Assembly (NCBI GenBank): GCA_021292105.1
Contig: CM037861.1
Span: 28,048,545-28,112,544, forward strand
Length of the DNA: 64,000 bases
Direction: 5' to 3'
Source of the DNA: Anadara kagoshimensis
Taxonomy: Eukaryota > Mollusca > Bivalvia > Arcoida > Arcidae
The notes under the pieces were generated by a model, which was given only the letters and a program-made list of their open reading frames with translations, searched no databases and was not told where the DNA came from. A program made the position numbers and the translations under genes. Below, one piece after another: positions 10,850 to 63,483 of this stretch; the stretch's first letter is position 1, and every line of letters begins with the position of its first letter.

Positions 10850-12460
10850 ATATAAATACAGCACCAAGAACTAACAGGCAATACCATGCATACGCCGCCA
10901 AAAAAATCGCGTCGCACAACATAAATACATCACCAAGAACTAACAGGCAATACCATTCATACAATGCCAAGAAAATCGCGTCGCACAACATAAATACATC
11001 ACCAAGAACTAACAGGCAATACCATGCATACAATGCCAAGAAAATCGCGTCGCACAACATAAATACATCACCAAGAACTAACAGGCAATACCATGCATAC
11101 AATGCCAAGAAAATCGCGTCGCACAACATAAATACATCACCAAGAACTAACAGGCAATACCATTCATACAATGCCAAGAAAATCGCGTCGCACAACATAA
11201 ATACATCACCAAAAACTAACAGGCAATACCATGCATACAATGCCAAGAAAATCGCGTCGCACAACATAAAAACATCACCAAGAACTAACAGGCAATACCA
11301 TGCATACAATGCCAAGAAAATCGCATCGCACAACATAAATACATCACCAAGAACTAACAGGCAATACCATGCATACAATGCCAAGAAAATCGAGTCGCAC
11401 AACATAAATACATCACCAAAAACTAACAGGCAATACCATGCATACAATGCCAAGAAAATCGCGTCGCACAACATAAATACATCACCAAGAACTGACAGGC
11501 AATACCATGCATACAATGCCAAGAAAATCGCATCGCATAACATAAATACATCACCAAGAACTAACAGGCAATACCATGCATACAATGCCAAGAAAATCGA
11601 GTCGCACAACATAAATACATCACCAAAAACTAACAGGCAATACCATTCATACAATGCCAAGAAAATTGAGTCGCACAACATAAATACATCACCAAGAACT
11701 AACAGGCAATACCATTCATACAATGCCAAGAAAATCGAGTCGCACAACATAAATACATCACCTAGAACTAACAGGCAATACCATTCATACAATGCCAAGA
11801 AAATCGCGTCGCACAACATAAATACATCACCAAAAACTAACAGGCAATACCATGCATACAATGCCAAGAAAATCGCATCGCACAACATAAATACATCACC
11901 AAGAACTGACAGGCAATACCATGCATACAATGCCAAGAAAATCGCATCGCACAACATAAATACATCACCAAGAACTAACAGGCAATACCATGCATACAAT
12001 GCCAAGAAAATCGAGTCGCACAACATAAATACATCACCAAAAACTAACAGGCAATACCATTCATACAATGCCAAGAAAATCGCATCGCACAACATAAATA
12101 CATCACCAAGAACTAACAGGCAATACCATTCATACAATGCCAAGAAAATCGAGTCGCACAACATAAATACATCACCAAGAACTAACAGGCAATACCATTC
12201 ATACAATGCCAAGAAAATCGAGTCGCACAACATAAATACATCACCTAGAACTAACAGGCAATACCATTCATACAATGCCAAGAAAATCGCGTCGCACAAC
12301 ATAAAAACATCACCAAGAACTAACAGGCAATACCATTCATACAATGCCAAGAAAATCGAGTCGCACAACATAAATACAGCACCAACAACTAACAGGCAAT
12401 ACCATTCATACAATACAAAGAAAATCGAGTCGCACAACATAAATACAACACGAAGAACAA
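10850..12460. repeat. 69-bp minisatellite, about 23 copies
   Basis: AACAGGCAATACCAT recurs every 69 bp from 10873 to 12391, exactly 22 intervals. The unit also holds ATACAATGCCAAGAAAATCG and CACAACATAAATACATCACC. Because 69 is divisible by three and the unit lacks stops on the minus strand, a 603-codon frame exists there (10845-12656), but it is a by-product. Variant sites (TTCATAC/TGCATAC, CGCGTCGC/CGCATCGC/CGAGTCGC, ACCAAGAAC/ACCAAAAAC/ACCTAGAAC) show a higher-order pattern. Flanks at 10490-10850 and 12460-12640 are decayed relatives of the unit. Confidence 0.95.
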
Positions 12461-48960: not shown

Positions 48961-49547
48961 GTATTGTGAAAAATGCCTGGCATTTGGAGTGATAGCTATC
49001 TTATCATTGTTGTTCTTATTTTCAACCAAGGATGTGATGTATTACCGCAAATCGGTTCCAACCGGTTATGTTGAGCCATGACACCAAAAATTAAATTAAA
49101 CAATGCACTAAAGTAGATTTCACTTACATGTATATTAATTTGTGCAGCCGTGTCCAAATTTTCTTAGGTTATGAAGCGGCTCTCAACCTATCGATGCACC
49201 TCTGATTTTATTGATATATCCTTGCGGGGAAAAAAGCATGTGACCATCTTACACAGGGAGGGAGCGCAAGATGGAGTTCTCTTTGACAGCTCTTTTTATG
49301 AATTTTTCTATCTGGAGTGGAAGAAAAAAGATCTCGGAATTACATACATGTCTGTGATTTCATTGACGTTATAAAATTATAAATTAGAAAAAATTCGCGT
49401 CAAGTAACGATTAAGAGAATAGTCATTTCCCAAATGTTTAGTCGATTGTTTAAATCTCTAATTATATTTTTTGTTGTTTATTGTTAGTTACCTTGCTCTT
49501 GTTATTTGTTTTTCACTTGTTACAGCGTTGTTGTTTGTTTGTTTAAG

Positions 49548-49743
49548 GTGTGACATTTACTAAAATGGAAGGCGACAAAGATGAAGACAACAATGTGATT
49601 AAATCTATAGAATCTGCTATCAAAGTTTGGGCTAAAGCGCTGGTTGAATTAGCAAAGAAACGTGAACGTTACAACGTAACACCAGTTCTGTCCTGTAATA
49701 CATCAAGTAACTTTTTCTGGAACCAAGGAGGGATATTATTCAG
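49548..49743 (+). CDS. GRIN2: GluN2 subunit, distal ATD exon 5
   Basis: This 196-nt exon starts by completing a Gly codon with GT and ends in phase 2 (TTC AG) before GTAAAG. The product includes V-I-K-S-I-E-S-A-I-K-V-W-A-K-A-L, corresponding to the GluN2 helix D-G-I-A-I-L. A charged stretch and P-V-L-S-C-N-T-S-S-N-F-F-W follow. The final N-Q-G-G-I-L-F-R corresponds to the mammalian W-D-G-K-D-L-S-F segment that closes the ATD. The C-N-T-S context includes an N-x-S sequon. The acceptor has a weak tract (TTTGTTTGTTTAAG), but the phase and the homology on both sides fit. Confidence 0.88.
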
Positions 49744-55278: not shown

Positions 55279-55517
55279 GTTGGAAGATGGACACCACAAG
55301 TTGAAAAGAAAAAAGCAGTCATGGGATTAGAAATGCATGACGTTACGTGGCCCGGTGGCGCATTATTTCCACCAAAAGGAAAACCCGAGAAGAGATATTT
55401 TAGAATTGTCACTTTAAAAGAAAAGCCTTATGTAATTTATAGAGAAACTGGCTCTGAAACACAACAATGTAGTGTCCACGAAGTGCCTTGTAGATTGGTG
55501 TACGACCCAACCGAACA
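55279..55517 (+). CDS. GRIN2: GluN2 subunit, linker and S1 start, exon 7
   Basis: This 239-nt exon starts in phase 0 with V-G-R-W-T-P and ends in phase 2 (GAA CA) before GTAAGT. It encodes the ATD-LBD linker and the first part of the glutamate-binding S1 lobe. Visible family marks are D-V-T-W-P-G-G, P-P-K-G-K-P, then I-V-T-L-K-E-K-P-Y-V-I, matching the family V-T-L-E-E-x-P-F-V-I. A cysteine pair C-x6-C (C-S-V-H-E-V-P-C) corresponds to the paired cysteines of GluN1 and GluN2 that bond with the C-C doublet in exon 8. W-P-G-G is typical of the iGluR S1 entry. Confidence 0.95.
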
Positions 55518-57920
55518 GTAAGTATAATGAACTAAAAAAACTTATTGTTTTGTTGTTAAATGTAAAGAACAAGAAACATAAACAAATGTTTTTAGCATTA
55601 TTACGTTAGGCGTATAACTTTATTTCATGTTACAAAACTTCTGAATGTGCAGGACGGATTTACACATATTTTCACTGCTTTGCTGTATTTTGTGAGAAAA
55701 TGGTCTAATGCACTAGTTTACATATCACAGCAGCGTTCGAATACCAGTCAGGTAGAGTTTTATGTTGGTCTTTTTATTTCAAGTACACCAGTTTTTCTTT
55801 CACAATTCCAGAACTGACCGTGATACAAGTTAACCCATTTTGACTTTCGGGTAAAACTTCGTTACAATACGTTACAAAAACTTATTTTAAATCTAAGGAC
55901 ATTTTAAATGAGGTCTAAAGCGATTGTAATTCTTCCAAACAGTATCATCTATCTATCAATAATAAATAAAAACTATATTCTGAACTATCTGTATATAAAG
56001 TGTTTGAATTTGATAACGGATAGATATGAAGATTCTTTTTGGAAGTATTAGTTTTATAAGGCCCTTTCAACAATTAGAAACCAACATTAAAGTTTTAGAT
56101 CGACTGCGAACATAGCTCATGATCATCAAGGAATTCGTAGACCTGCGATGATGAATCAGTCATTTGGGAATAATGGATAGAAGCTTACATTATATTTACT
56201 GAGTAATACGTTTGGAAATAACCCTCATTAAGCATAATAAAAAGAAGAATAAACACGACTGAAGTCACAAGTATATTGATATAGAGAAATGACGACGATT
56301 TGGGAACACATAACATGGTCCAGAGATCCCAGAAGATCAAAAACCAAAATATCTCTCTTTAAAAGCATTGATTATAATTCTCGGGTTATCATCTATAAAA
56401 TGCATTTTCATGCCTTCACGCCAAGTCATCCTAATGTTGTGTCTCTGGGGTTTAACAAGAAAGATAATGTTTTCCACATCACGTATAAATTAATTTATTT
56501 ATAGTCTACTCAATGATATAGAAATGAAAAAAAATCCATTTATAGCGCGTCCATATGTATAGAATTATGTGTTTGTGTTTGAAATTGAATATTTATTTGT
56601 TGTCAGTTGAATCAGTATTCTTCCTCTGATAATGATTTCAAATTTGATCACTGATAAAATGGAATTAAATGGAAACTAGTCCAGGCGTGGTATTAACGAC
56701 ACTTTAAGTCCGCTCGAGAGAATCAAATTTCTGAACATGAGCGGGACTTGGGATTTTCTTTTTATAAAACAATTTATGAGTACACTAATGATTCATATTT
56801 ACACAGCTCTAAATATTTACTGATTTGTCAAATTCTATTTTTGTAAGATGTAATTTCGTTTTTTATCTTTCATATTAATAATTCGTAAATTAAGATGTGA
56901 CAATAGCTGTTGATATCGTGTTCGTTTTTCGTATAAATTGGATTTTGTGATTCAAAAACCTTTGTGGAACTGAGTCTCTCAGGAAATCAAACATGCTTTT
57001 AAAATCTGCTATCATAACATGGTATTATTCAACCAATTCAAATGGAATTATAATTCAGAGAAAACCTTCTATAGATAAGATATAAATAGTTATGGAAATA
57101 AAATCAAATACAATTGGATTTAAGATTATTGCTTGTTTAATTTGTGATTTTAAAATCCAATTGATATAAACCAAAGAATATGTACTATTAAAGAATATAA
57201 AGGGCTTTTTCTCTAAAAACAGAAACTGCTTTTAATTTGTCTGCCAAAAGAATCTTTTATTTTTATATTTTATCGATTTTATATTCCAAATACAGTTGAA
57301 ATACAACATATATTTATCAGTTTTGTGTTGGTTTCCTTTCCTCTTAATTGCGATATGGCTATGGTGATTGTTTAGTATATAAGGTATTGTTGTTGTTAAA
57401 AATATACCCTTTAAAACTACAGAATATTTAAAAAAAAGTTTTCTAAATCCGTTTACAATTAGGCTTAGTTGAGTAATTTATCCGTCGTGGTGTTTTGCAT
57501 ATGCCAAGTACAAGCTCATCTGCTAGTATTATACTAATGCTTTTTTACTTAAATCCTGGAGTGATACTACAGTTGGTTTTTTAATTGATAAAAGATTATT
57601 GAATGTGTGCATGACCTGCATCTTAATATAGCGATCGCAAAGATAGTGATCAAATGTAAATGCTTTGTAAATTTATAGAAAAGGTAAGCGATTCTGGTAA
57701 ATCTATTATTATAAGCACGTCTTGCTGTTAAATTACCACTGGTATAATATAAAATTGCAGTCTAACAATACGTTTCAAAATAATATATATTATACAAGTT
57801 TCATTTTTACAACAGTAAACCAAAAATTATTTTTAGCCGATTTTGAAACATCCATCTATTTATTTGTACATTGGTCACGACATGTGGTATTTTTTTTATC
57901 TTTCTATCTGTATTTTACAG
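55518..57920 (+). other. GRIN2: Intron 7 (2.4 kb)
   Basis: The intron runs from GTAAGT to TGTATTTTACAG. A short GCTGTTAAATTACCACTGGTATA fragment near 57724-57746 resembles the end of the GGCCGTCTAGTGCTG repeat family. Otherwise nothing is recognised. Confidence 0.8.
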
Positions 57921-58068
57921 TGGTAATGACAGTACACTTGCCAACAATACAGTATCCAGATGTTGTGCCGGATTATGTATAGATCTATTACGGATACTCA
58001 GTGAACGAATGAGGTTTGATTATACTTTATACGAAGTACCCGACCAGACCTGGGGACTGCCGGATGAG
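57921..58068 (+). CDS. GRIN2: GluN2 subunit, S1 exon 8
   Basis: This 148-nt exon completes a His codon and ends in phase 0 (GAT GAG) before GTAATA. It encodes the core of S1: R-C-C-A-G-L-C-I-D-L-L-R-I-L, the near-invariant NMDA receptor C-C-x-G-x-C-I-D-I-L motif, then F-D-Y-T-L-Y-E-V. Two N-glycosylation sequons, N-D-S and N-N-T, precede the cysteine doublet. In the following loop the residue aligned with His485 of rat GluN2A is a tryptophan (T-W-G where GluN2A has K-H-G). The loop is shorter and different in sequence from that of vertebrate GluN2. Confidence 0.96.
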
Positions 58069-59303: not shown

Positions 59304-59490
59304 AGAACGGGAGAATGGAATGGCTTAATTCGACAAATTATGGATGGCAAAGCAGATATGATATTTACATCTTTAAAAATAACACCGAAAAGAAATGAAC
59401 ATATTGCATTTTCCGTCCCATTTTTAGAGACTGGTATTGCGATAGTTGTGTCTATAAGGAAAGGCGCTATTTCTCCGACAGCATTTCTGG
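59304..59490 (+). CDS. GRIN2: GluN2 subunit, S1 ligand-contact exon 9
   Basis: This 187-nt exon starts in phase 0 after TTTCAG and ends in phase 1 (CTG G) before GTAAAC. It carries W-N-G-L-I, then D-M-I-F-T-S-L-K-I-T-P-K-R, F-S-V-P-F-L-E-T-G-I, and S-P-T-A-F-L, all in the family order. Aligned with GluN2A, Ser511 and Arg518 are kept. Arg518 is the arginine that binds the agonist alpha-carboxylate throughout the iGluR family. Thr513 is Lys here. The last base combines with AA of either following exon to make the Glu that opens the M1 segment, so this donor can serve exon 10a or 10b. Confidence 0.96.
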
Positions 59491-60175
59491 GTAAACATTG
59501 ATTCTTTTATTGGATATTCTTATGTATTTTTAAATTGCTTTTATAGCTAGGAAAGTAAAATTTCAGAATAATTAAAAGTCGCCATACTTCAAAATGTTGG
59601 TTATTTTAGTGGGTGATGATATGTAAATACAAATAAATGTTATGTACCAAGGAAGAAAATTAGGGGAGTAATTTAAACATAACCACGAGATTTTCTCCAA
59701 AATTTGTTTTGAAATAACAGCTGTTGTTATTTTTCGTAGTCTGACTTTGATGATTTTGTTCTCAATACGATTTCAAAAAATACATTAAATCGACAATTTT
59801 CTAAATTAAAGAAGAGGACACATTTAAATAGGAAATAGGTTCGCCAATGTTACCAGGGATCAACACTCCTTAACTTTTGTGTGGAGCGATTTAAAAAAAA
59901 ACGTTGAAGTCGCAAATTCTTGTAATACGATAGTTTAACAGTAAAATAGCAACTGATACAACTCCATACCTTAGGAAAAATAATTATTTCCACAAACGTT
60001 ATTAGTTTATAACGTGGTACACTGGCGAACATTATTATTATGTTTCTATTGGTTTAACCTACTCTCCTTTAAACATAAAGTTTGAATTAGAAGCCATCGT
60101 TTAATGCGTTCTTAATTTTTTTACACAAGTTACAACTACAATTTCAGTTTGTTTTACCTACTGGTTGTGTTTCAG
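59491..60175 (+). other. GRIN2: Intron 9, upstream of the first M1 exon (685 bp)
   Basis: The intron runs from GTAAAC to TGGTTGTGTTTCAG. No repeat is recognised. Confidence 0.8.
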
Positions 60176-60301
60176 AACCTTTTAGTTTACGATATTTTCT
60201 ACCGATTCTCCTCGGCACCCTCCATGCAGTTGGTTTCACAATCTTCATCCTCAATGTCGTAAGCGACAGATTTACTAAGAATCAGCAGAGTTTAACTCGA
60301 G
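60176..60301 (+). CDS. GRIN2: GluN2 subunit, alternative M1 exon 10a
   Basis: This exon is 126 nt, phase 1 at both ends, with a good acceptor (GTGTTTCAG) and donor (GAG GTAAAC). It encodes E-P-F-S, a hydrophobic helix from about residue 7 to 29 (from R-Y-F-L-P-I to I-L-N-V-V), and the linker S-D-R-F-T-K-N-Q-Q-S-L-T-R. It is open throughout and joins exon 9 and exon 11 in frame. It aligns without gaps to exon 10b at 13 of 42 residues, including the opening E-P, H-A-x-G and I-F-I. It lacks the E-W/Y-L/F-S-P-x-G motif that normally follows M1 in GluN2. I infer a duplicated alternative exon. A decayed exon is possible but less likely, given the open frame and intact splice sites. Confidence 0.8.
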
Positions 60302-61688
60302 GTAAACATAAGAACAGGTTCACTTTTGACATTTGCTGATTCTCTATGCTTTAAACAATATTTTGTGTCTTAAGTATATGTCTTTGGTAGATATCTGCAT
60401 GGGCTGAATTTTTGACTGAAATTTCTTATATATCTTTATTAGTTTCCAAAAACTCTTAAAATATCATTTATCTAGTTTTGGCTATGAGACAAAATCAGTA
60501 GGAAGAGAAAATATAAAATTTAAAATAAGCATAAGGACTTAATAATCAGTCAAATCTCGTAACACAATACATATTTACTTGCTAATTCCAAAACCAATAA
60601 ATGCCTTAAATTGTAATTGTCTTTGCATGAAATAAAATGTAACCATTGAGAATTTTTCGTATTGTACAGATAACTTAATCCTTACTATAAATGTCAAACT
60701 AGGTGCCCCTGTGACCGAAAAGTCTAAAGGCAACAGCTTATATACCACATCGCCTCTCTCACCGTCTATTTTTGTATTTTATTCGGACATATCCTAGTGC
60801 AAGAATATTTGTCGGTTTGCCTTTCTAAGACCGTTGTTTTTCTCCGGGTACTACAATTACAAAACTATGTAAAAAAAAAAATCTTGAATCTGGCATAAAA
60901 CATCATTGCTCCACTCAATTCAACTCAAATGCCATAAAAAATCACAAGTTCTTTGATATTTGTTAACTCCTTAACAATTTATTCCAATGAAATGATCAAA
61001 GCTTCTTTCATAAATTGAAGTTATCAGTTTCTCCATTGATCAAGATACGCTGTAATTCTTCTGTATGAATTTGCTTAATTAAGGCATAGGAAGTCCTTGA
61101 AATTAACACAAATATCTTAAATGACGACTCTAAGACTATCGGTTAATTAAACACGATTTAAAATATTAAAATTGAAGTTTATGTCGTTACTAATTATCAA
61201 AGACGTTTTCTCTGTTTTAGAATACGACTCATTAGTATTCAGTTTAGTATTCGTTTCATTTAACAATTTGTACTAAATAACATTTTAAGCATTTTAAGCA
61301 TGCTCATGTTCCATGCATTCGAAGTCAAACGTTAAATTGAAATAAAAGATATCTTAAAAATTCACTATTTCGAAAATTTCTAATTTTTTTTTAAACTCTT
61401 ATTTACGTTTGCTTTAAATTATATCCGTACATATTTTTGCATTTCAATATTTTTATAAACAGTTACCAGGCACAAATAACTTAGAGGCCTACATATAGAC
61501 GCCCACAGTGACTTGTCTAGCACAAGCTTATATATGTTCTATATGTGTTTGGTAATTGTTTATAATGTTTTACTCTGATGTTTCTGTCTTTACATTCTTT
61601 CTACATTCATTATTTTCTTCTTTACAGATTGTACTTGATCTTTTCATACTTGTATTGTTTTTCTTTACGCTGTTTCTCTGGTTTTCAG
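60302..61688 (+). other. GRIN2: Interval between the two alternative M1 exons (1387 bp)
   Basis: This is the intron separating exon 10a from exon 10b. It runs from GTAAAC to GGTTTTCAG and holds no repeat I recognise. At 1.4 kb it is too long for steric interference between the two exons' splice sites. A second acceptor-like TTTACAG lies about 60 nt before exon 10b, but its use would put exon 9 and M1 out of frame. Confidence 0.75.
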
Positions 61689-61814
61689 AACCGTATGACT
61701 ATCCATCTTGGTGTTTAATTTTGGTGTTTAGTGTTCATGCTACTGGAGCGTCAATATTTATTTACGAATGGCTAAGTCCACGAGGACTTGACCGGGGGAG
61801 GACATCATTGAGAG
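61689..61814 (+). CDS. GRIN2: GluN2 subunit, canonical-type M1 exon 10b
   Basis: This exon is 126 nt, phase 1 at both ends, after TGGTTTTCAG and before GAG GTAACT. It encodes E-P-Y-D-Y-P-S-W, a hydrophobic M1 helix (C-L-I-L-V-F-S-V-H-A-T-G-A-S-I-F-I), and the family-typical linker Y-E-W-L-S-P-R-G followed by a basic stretch ending T-S-L-R. Vertebrate GluN2 has F-E-Y-F-S-P-V-G here, and insect Nmdar2 is, from memory, very similar to this exon. I take 10b as the ancestral M1 exon. Its length and phase equal those of 10a exactly, so either can replace the other. The same frame runs open for 130 nt upstream of the acceptor, but that is intron. Confidence 0.93.
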
Positions 61815-63259
61815 GTAACTGCGAGGTAAATTATGGTTCATGTGGTAATTAGAACAGCAGGGAAATAGCTTGTGACATGCGCATGCGTCGTCTTCTTTCC
61901 TTTGTAGATTATATTTTGTATTATGTGCATTGACTGTAGTTGGGTTATTAGCTACATGTATGTGTTGTATCTTTATGTCTTCGACGCCATTCCCCCCCAA
62001 TTTTTTTTATTTATGAAACTTACCTCCCCTCCTCCTTAATTTTACAACACCTAAGGCACCTAAGTTACTTTTGAATATTTTCTTTATGTTATTGACTTGA
62101 TATCCATACATAAATTCCAAGTTAGTTTATTTTTCGAGGCATAATAAGTGAATTTGTAATGAAAAAGTAACGTAATAAGGCTAACCATAATTGTTTCAAA
62201 ATATCAAGTTTAATACTGTTATTGCATTGAAACAACATTGAACATACAGCATGCTAATTAATGATTTGGTAACAGAAAGTTTTAGGAAATCAAGATTAAT
62301 TCATCGTAATTATTGTCACATTACGATTGATATTCACACTAGAAAAAGCTTGAATGATTTGTTTACAGAAAGTGTTAGGAATTTAAGGAATTCATAGTTA
62401 TCCTTTTCAAGTTATGATTAATATTTATACTTTAAAACACTTGCATTGATTTTATTAATATTCACTAAAGGCGTTTTCCATATTGCAACATGGACGGTTT
62501 CCATTTAAGCTTGTACAGAAATACAATTTTGAAAAATAAATACCAATTGACATATATAAGATACTTTACGATTATCATAATAGCACCTTCAACCAAACAA
62601 TGGAATCAGTAAGAAAAAAGAAAAAGCTACAATGTATATACATAGATATAAAGTCAAGAATAATTTACCTATGGCTGGAATAATGTTTGGTGTCTTGTGC
62701 TCATGATCGCTCTTTGTAACTCTATGTTGATGCACGGGTATTTTTTATTTATTTTATTTTAGTATTATTATTTTCTTTTATTTGTGAAACTAAACATTTT
62801 GATTTAAATGTAATTCATGAAATATATGTGTTTTGATTAATGGATTTAAGGAATTTATATCAGATCTGAATGAAATAACGATATTATACATTCTATAAAT
62901 CAAAAAAAAAAAAACATGTACGTACTCATTACTAAATTAAATGTACTTATTTTGTTGGCTTCGTGTTTCACCAATGATATGGCAGTCATTACAATCTGAA
63001 AGGTCAATATAGGAACACTGAACATGCACAACTTCTATTTTATATATAAAGTTATATACTTATTTATAACTTTCTTGTATTCTTTATTAAATTGATATTA
63101 TTTTAGACTCAATATTATTATTAAAAATGGTATGTTTGTTTTTTATGCATTTATAAAAAGTGTTTTTTTTTAAATCAATTTGTAAATTATTCTACCCTTT
63201 GTTCACAATCTTCTTATTAAAATTATTTAATCAATTGTTTATTCCTTTTTCTCATGCAG
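61815..63259 (+). other. GRIN2: Intron between M1 and M2 exons (1445 bp)
   Basis: The intron runs from GTAACT to TCATGCAG. Bases about 62255-62480 contain two degenerate copies of a roughly 115-bp segment with AACAGAAAGT and GTTAGGAA-like words. No third M1 exon or alternative M2 exon is visible. Confidence 0.75.
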
Positions 63260-63483
63260 ATGGTCACAGATTTTCTTTGTTCCGTTCACTTTGGCTTATT
63301 TGGGCAATGTTGTTCGGAGCATCAGTTTCAACCGATACCCCTCGGGGTGTTTCTAGCAGGTTCCTAGCAAACATATGGGCTTTGTTTGCGTTGGTGTTTC
63401 TTGCGAGTTATACAGCTAACCTGGCAGCCTTTATGATTACAAAAGATGTACACTTCCATTTATCTGGGATTAAAGACATCAAA
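63260..63483 (+). CDS. GRIN2: GluN2 subunit, M2 pore loop and M3 exon 11
   Basis: This 224-nt exon completes an Asp codon and ends in phase 0 (ATC AAA) before GTACGT. It encodes [17 protein letters not shown], the re-entrant M2 pore loop, then P-R-G-V-S-S-R-F, and the M3 helix [21 protein letters not shown]. The SYTANLAAF gating motif is perfect. The exon ends with L-S-G-I-K-D-I-K at the start of S2. At the pore tip the residues aligned with the two vertebrate GluN2 asparagines are Gly-Ala. This is normal wild-type-looking coding sequence without stops. Beyond it the gene leaves the window. Confidence 0.97.

Follow-up and report, generated by a model that had tools for sequence, protein, structure and literature searches.

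1. Introduction

Within the ionotropic glutamate receptor family, the nearest case to the exon pair described in this work is that of the flip and flop exons of the AMPA receptor genes (GRIA1-4), which are tandem, mutually exclusive exons of equal length whose exchange alters gating, as described in PMC8257547. However, flip and flop are located at the end of the ligand-binding S2 region and differ at 8-10 of 38 residues, while the two exons reported here, called 10a and 10b, encode the pre-M1 segment, the M1 helix and the M1-M2 linker, and differ at 29 of 42 residues.

A second case is found outside this family. Nicotinic alpha6 is a Cys-loop receptor, with a fold that is unrelated to that of the glutamate receptors. 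In insects, its exons 3 and 8 are present as tandem-duplicated alternative exons of a neurotransmitter-gated channel; some exon copies are absent in some insects and, among those of exon 8, the best conserved one is also the most used, according to the accessible text of PMC1919356. The insect alternatives are backed in that text by cDNAs, whereas 10a and 10b are described here from genomic DNA.

The human GRIN2 genes belong to the same gene family as the gene studied here. The splice events covered by the accessible text of PMC8257547 affect the last exon of GRIN2A, the 5' UTR of GRIN2B and GRIN2C, and a 63-nt cassette exon of GRIN2C in S2; unlike the 10a/10b pair, they lie elsewhere in the protein and include no M1 alternative. 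Among molluscs, Aplysia possesses a GluN2. The accessible text of PMC5225553 gives it a single Grin2 gene, as in each protostome studied there, and names a splice variant for Grin1 only, whereas three GluN2-type genes are present in the genome analysed here. Among the titles and abstract openings listed for openly licensed papers, none describes an exon pair that swaps M1 in a glutamate receptor, and none of the accessible text of an oyster iGluR paper (PMC10642201) yielded an alternative M1 exon.

2. Gene and Exon Layout

The window, i.e., the whole stretch of DNA analysed, comprises 64,000 nucleotides of contig C5 of Anadara kagoshimensis, whose 1.1-Gb genome comprises 36 contigs. Its 3' end falls within an ionotropic glutamate receptor gene of the + strand. 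Three GluN2-type genes are located on this contig: the window gene (C5:28.11 Mb) and two further ones, paralogue B (C5:28.27 Mb; L021/L022) and paralogue C (C5:51.85 Mb; L023/L026). The following features of the window gene could be placed:

49547..49741, + strand: match to an amino-terminal-domain exon of the same gene; ends approximate (38% identity to paralogue B, E 6e-10)
55279..55518, + strand: exon match, start of ligand-binding S1; ends approximate (52% identity to paralogue B, E 1.5e-26; 49% to paralogue C, E 1.4e-25)
57921..58068, + strand: exon 8, S1; ends from splice sites and phase
59304..59490, + strand: exon 9, end of S1 and first base of a split Glu codon; 5' end from phase
60176..60301, + strand: exon 10a, putative alternative pre-M1, M1 and M1-M2 linker, EPFSLRYFLPILLGTLHAVGFTIFILNVVSDRFTKNQQSLTR; from geometry, homology and neutral simulation
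61689..61814, + strand: exon 10b, canonical pre-M1, M1 and M1-M2 linker, EPYDYPSWCLILVFSVHATGASIFIYEWLSPRGLDRGRTSLR; from geometry and the 126-nt counterparts in paralogues B and C
63260..63483, + strand: exon 11, M2-M3; M2 reads LFGASV, versus VFNNSV in GluN2D

Exon 9 is 69% identical to its counterpart in paralogue B and 48% to that in paralogue C. Matches to the S2, M4 and C-terminal exons of the gene, recognised by their similarity to the paralogues, are found beyond the window. Judging from these exon matches rather than from an end-to-end assembly, the window gene looks whole from its amino-terminal to its C-terminal part. On the - strand, positions 11367-12410 of the window contain repeated short frames (FLALYEWYCLLV..DVFMLCDSI) that gave chance matches to 10b; this region resembles a tandem repeat array.

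3. GluN2 Identity

The preliminary description had assigned this gene to the GluN2 type, and three lines of evidence (PDB matches, a tree of the M1-M3 region and the S2 exons) agree with that assignment. When the protein encoded by exons 9-10b-11 was compared with the PDB, 59 of the best 60 of 367 matches were named GluN2 or NR2, the remaining one being named 'Glutamate receptor', and the best match among those listed was GluN2D, with 163.6 bits. Over M1-M3, the 10b form is identical to GluN2D at 53 of 118 residues and to GluN3A at 47 of 114; for the M1 part alone there is a near tie (18/46 versus 17/45). A nine-row tree of M1-M3 separates the GluN2 rows from the GluN3 rows with a support of 98/96, its resolution ending at this split and not extending to the branching within GluN2. 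The exons that follow encode RFGTIPNGSTEENIREN and AFIYDATPLEY, so that the S2 residues PNGSTE and FIYDA are present (L024). We take residues of this type in the S2 exons to be glutamate-binding motifs.

A GluN3 identity was considered because 10b (YEW-SP-GL) and M2 (LFG--V) look GluN3-like. It was rejected: when two genes of contig C4 are included in the comparison, these fall with GluN3A, whereas the window gene lies outside the GluN3 clade. Those two GluN3-type genes (C4:10.239 and 10.305 Mb; L027 and L028) carry S1-M3 in one long open frame, of 405 and 387 residues, respectively, in contrast to the intron-split GluN2 genes. A further locus, on C9 (L029), is one that we take to be GluN1-type, and another GluN1-type locus is indicated by matches alone.

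Two other observations were made in this genome. A block of iGluR matches occurs twice with near-identical scores (C17:7.50-7.92 and 9.50-9.94 Mb), which would correspond to a segmental duplication or to an unmerged haplotype. COX1-like copies at C4:4.487-4.538 Mb (L030) are open under the invertebrate mitochondrial code, and would be nuclear inserts or misplaced mitochondrial sequence; a COX1-like stretch of this kind seems to be of bivalve type.

4. Geometry of the Exon Pair

According to the preliminary description, 10a and 10b are both 126 nt long, of phase 1-1, open and flanked by GT-AG sites, and they complete the same split codons on either side. A re-reading of the sequence agrees on every one of these points. 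The 5' flank is ...tttcag for both exons, and the 3' flank is gtaaac for 10a and gtaact for 10b. The final G of exon 9 forms GAA (Glu) with the AA of either exon, and the final G of either exon forms GAT (Asp) with the AT of exon 11. The pair thereby combines the features used to recognise mutually exclusive exons: tandem position, equal length, same phase and compatible splice sites. Exons 9, 10a, 10b and 11 follow one another collinearly on a single strand, with an intron of 1387 nt separating 10a from 10b. Four joins are open and in frame, namely 9-10a-11, 9-10b-11, double inclusion and skipping; since 126 is divisible by 3, the reading frame does not force 10a and 10b to exclude each other.

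5. Homology of 10a with M1 Exons

Aligned without gaps, 10a and 10b are identical at 13 of 42 residues, including E-P, H-A-x-G and I-F-I, exactly as had been noticed before, and the claim that they are two homologous M1 exons is upheld by a score far above those of decoys. This BLOSUM62 score is 48. It was reached by none of 200,000 full shuffles of 10a and by a fraction of 9e-5 of the shuffles that preserve hydropathy class, both figures referring to an exon that was picked because it looked intact and not blindly. A set of 114 open 126-nt candidates bounded by AG and GT was drawn from the window and further, partly overlapping loci (383,716 bases over both strands); the top four were 10b, the M1 exons of B and C, and 10a, while the fifth scored -9.

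Relative to the self scores, the pair reaches values of 0.19 and 0.208, exceeding the 15% minimum of PMC3228551; the scorer was modelled on the rules given in the accessible text of that paper and is not its program. In an exon-pair scan with 11 of 15 exon queries counted, those in the right frame (A11, one of the 11, gave no candidates; A14, B9, B11 and C9 were left out), 10a/10b was the sole pair above 0 among the two best candidates per query, the two best candidates for 10a and for 10b being versions of each other. Judged by its sequence, 10a is a true homologue of the M1 exon 10b. AlphaFold2, run on 10a with three relatives, predicted a single helix at residues 5-41 with a mean pLDDT of 84, a model that says only that 10a can be a membrane helix.

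6. Paralogues and Copies of the M1 Exon

Paralogues B and C contain one 126-nt, phase 1-1 M1 exon each. As this is the same exon as 10b, the latter is regarded as the ordinary, canonical M1 exon of the window gene. The exon of B is identical to 10b at 35 of 42 residues and that of C at 25 of 42; the corresponding identities to 10a are 12/42 and 9/42.

No 10a-like exon was found in the introns that flank the M1 exon of these two paralogues. The best local protein alignments of 10a to the four introns had P values of 0.09, 0.62, 0.11 and 0.41 against resampled introns, and one of five DNA alignments (C, intron 9-10) had a P of 0.04 before correction. A weak tblastn match of 10a in B (E 8.3), which contains a stop, was rejected as evidence of a relic exon there. 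When the whole genome was searched, the query 10a recovered only itself at E values up to 10. This result excludes close copies only, because that search missed 10b, which plain tblastn finds (E 0.005).

7. Is 10a an Intact Exon or a Relic?

At the DNA level, 10a and 10b share 53 of 126 bases (42% identity). The identities are distributed nearly evenly over the three codon positions (18, 19 and 16 of 42), without a third-position signature. Neutral decay was simulated by mutating 10b without selection to 43% DNA identity in 3000 runs. Frame and splice sites were kept in 0.2% of the runs, a figure to be read with the fact that 10a was chosen for its intact look. A score of at least 48 was obtained in 0.03%, and frame, splice sites and score were retained together in none of the 3000, uncorrected for the choice of an intact-looking exon. 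The preliminary description had set an intact exon against a relic, and it is the intact exon rather than a long-decayed copy that stands, since neutral decay does not explain the survival of 10a at 42% identity. The GC content of 10a is 41%, which is exon-like, versus 27-29% in the surrounding introns, where 4 of 629 windows attain this value.

The codon usage of 10a is not coding-like: it scores -2.9 bits, versus +11.2 for 10b, +12.0 for B and +9.1 for C, and takes rank 67 in a set of 105 open 126-nt candidates that includes genuine coding sequence. For the synonymous part of codon usage, the values are -1.4 bits for 10a versus +2.5 (10b), +4.5 (B) and +0.9 (C). As the scores derive from a small training set of 728 codons and are influenced by helix composition, this result constitutes mild evidence against 10a being coding.

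With respect to conserved residues, residue 8 of 10b is a Trp that all 16 of the distinct M1 segments compared with 10a possess, and 10a has Phe in its place. The segments counted were 13 distinct ones from other receptors of the genome together with 10b, B and C. Excluded from the count were matches of the pattern outside receptor M1 (one of the two in L008, L009, L017 and L019 each; those in L023 and L026), L020, whose M1 was missed by the pattern, and the receptor matches for which no locus was read (50 of 70, apart from loci added later). After M1, 10a has Ser-Asp where each of the six NMDA-type segments compared (10b, B, C, L027, L028 and L029) has Ser-Pro; the Pro at residue 2 is retained. 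The Pfam Lig_chan match has 83.2 bits with 10a versus 92.4 bits with 10b; taken as exons alone, 10a gave no Pfam match and 10b only a sub-threshold one.

Several of these results would be expected if 10a were a relic, that is, an alternative exon once used and now unspliced in this species, with its frame still unbroken: the paralogues do not have it, its codon usage is not coding-like and it has lost the Trp that the remaining M1 segments of the comparison share. However, its frame, both splice sites and homology score have survived at 42% DNA identity, a combination seen in 0/3000 neutral runs, and only a recent silencing would fit them. We consider a relic unlikely.

8. Mode of Splicing

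In our reading, 10a and 10b are probably spliced in a mutually exclusive manner. Double inclusion would yield two consecutive membrane helices and reverse the orientation of all that lies downstream, and skipping would remove M1; it is from these consequences that exclusivity is inferred. A different mode of use, in which 10a enters transcripts by double inclusion or as a low-level cassette and the resulting misfolded or dominant-negative subunit tunes receptor number, would be compatible with 126 nt being in frame in every combination. The 1387-nt intron between the exons would, in addition, be too long for steric exclusion. Thirteen inverted pairs, candidate elements for RNA pairing, are listed within 4.2 kb; they are mostly AT-rich and several link different introns. 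For instance, 59888-59902 is fully complementary to 63162-63176 over 15 nt of A/T-run sequence. Against non-exclusive use stands the combination of equal length, equal phase and homology from end to end, which is characteristic of substitution splicing; in the accessible text of PMC3228551, only 90 of the 16,180 Drosophila X-chromosome exons that are not mutually exclusive share such features. We regard non-exclusive use of 10a as quite improbable; regulatory proteins are possible enforcers of the exclusion.

It is very improbable that 10a is an assembly artefact, joined in here from another gene copy or haplotype: near-duplicate iGluR blocks exist elsewhere in the assembly (C17, 7.5-7.9 and 9.5-9.9 Mb), but 9-10a-10b-11 are collinear on one strand and no second copy close to 10a occurs in the assembly.

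9. Proposed Function of the Exon Pair

The reading that we prefer, with a probability of roughly two in three, is that the M1 exon of this GluN2-type subunit was duplicated in tandem long ago, and that the diverged, intact 10a replaces 10b in minority or cell-type-restricted transcripts. What the sequence itself establishes is that 10a is homologous to 10b, interchangeable with it in frame, bounded by intact splice sites and preserved beyond what neutral decay explains. With 10b as the canonical copy, the spliceosome would use 10b as the default exon and 10a in a subset of cells. The 10a form of the subunit would then differ in its pre-M1 helix, its M1 helix and its M1-M2 linker.

Vertebrate NMDA receptors have their pre-M1 helix in contact with M3, and agonist potency and time course are affected by single changes at the pre-M1 Pro, as reported in PMC5240934. 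In the same paper, the pre-M1 helix and its linker count among the GluN2A and GluN2B regions with the strongest depletion of missense variants in humans. Altered gating or assembly would be the most likely consequence of using 10a, given the contact between pre-M1 and the M3 gate and the replacement in 10a of both the conserved Trp and the post-M1 Ser-Pro. With 29 of 42 residues changed, including this Trp, gating or assembly should change. A 10a subunit that assembles without opening would be as possible as one that opens differently.

10. The M2 Pore Site

The Asn pair of the M2 pore site is absent from the GluN2-type genes of this genome, GA replacing the NN of GluN2D in three out of three. 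The motif is FGAS or FGAA, versus FNNS in GluN2D, in the window (63260-63483), in L021 (9659-9871) and in L023 (75-281, - strand), and its Gly is GluN3-like. This change sits in exon 11, is common to the paralogues and is independent of 10a. Despite its Gly-Ala pore site, the window gene is GluN2-type by descent; NMDA-type permeation is not claimed for it. The Q/R/N site of the NMDA2A subunit is described in PMC12226733 as otherwise invariable, an Asn-to-Lys change there weakening Ca2+ permeation and Mg2+ block. By analogy, Gly-Ala at the M2 site may act on Ca2+ permeation and Mg2+ block as that change does.

11. Concluding Remarks

We lean slightly towards the existence of a regulated splice switch that swaps the first membrane helix of an NMDA subunit, and that would produce either two channels differing in gating, block or assembly, or a channel and a silencing subunit, in a lineage whose GluN2 genes have also lost the pore Asn. 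If this is true, a natural gene would carry two versions of pre-M1/M1, 31% identical, behind one ligand-binding domain, and such a pair would be a ready-made test of which features of pre-M1/M1 are required for gating and assembly. Protostomes would then also be seen to diversify their NMDA receptors by splicing, whereas vertebrates use four GRIN2 genes.
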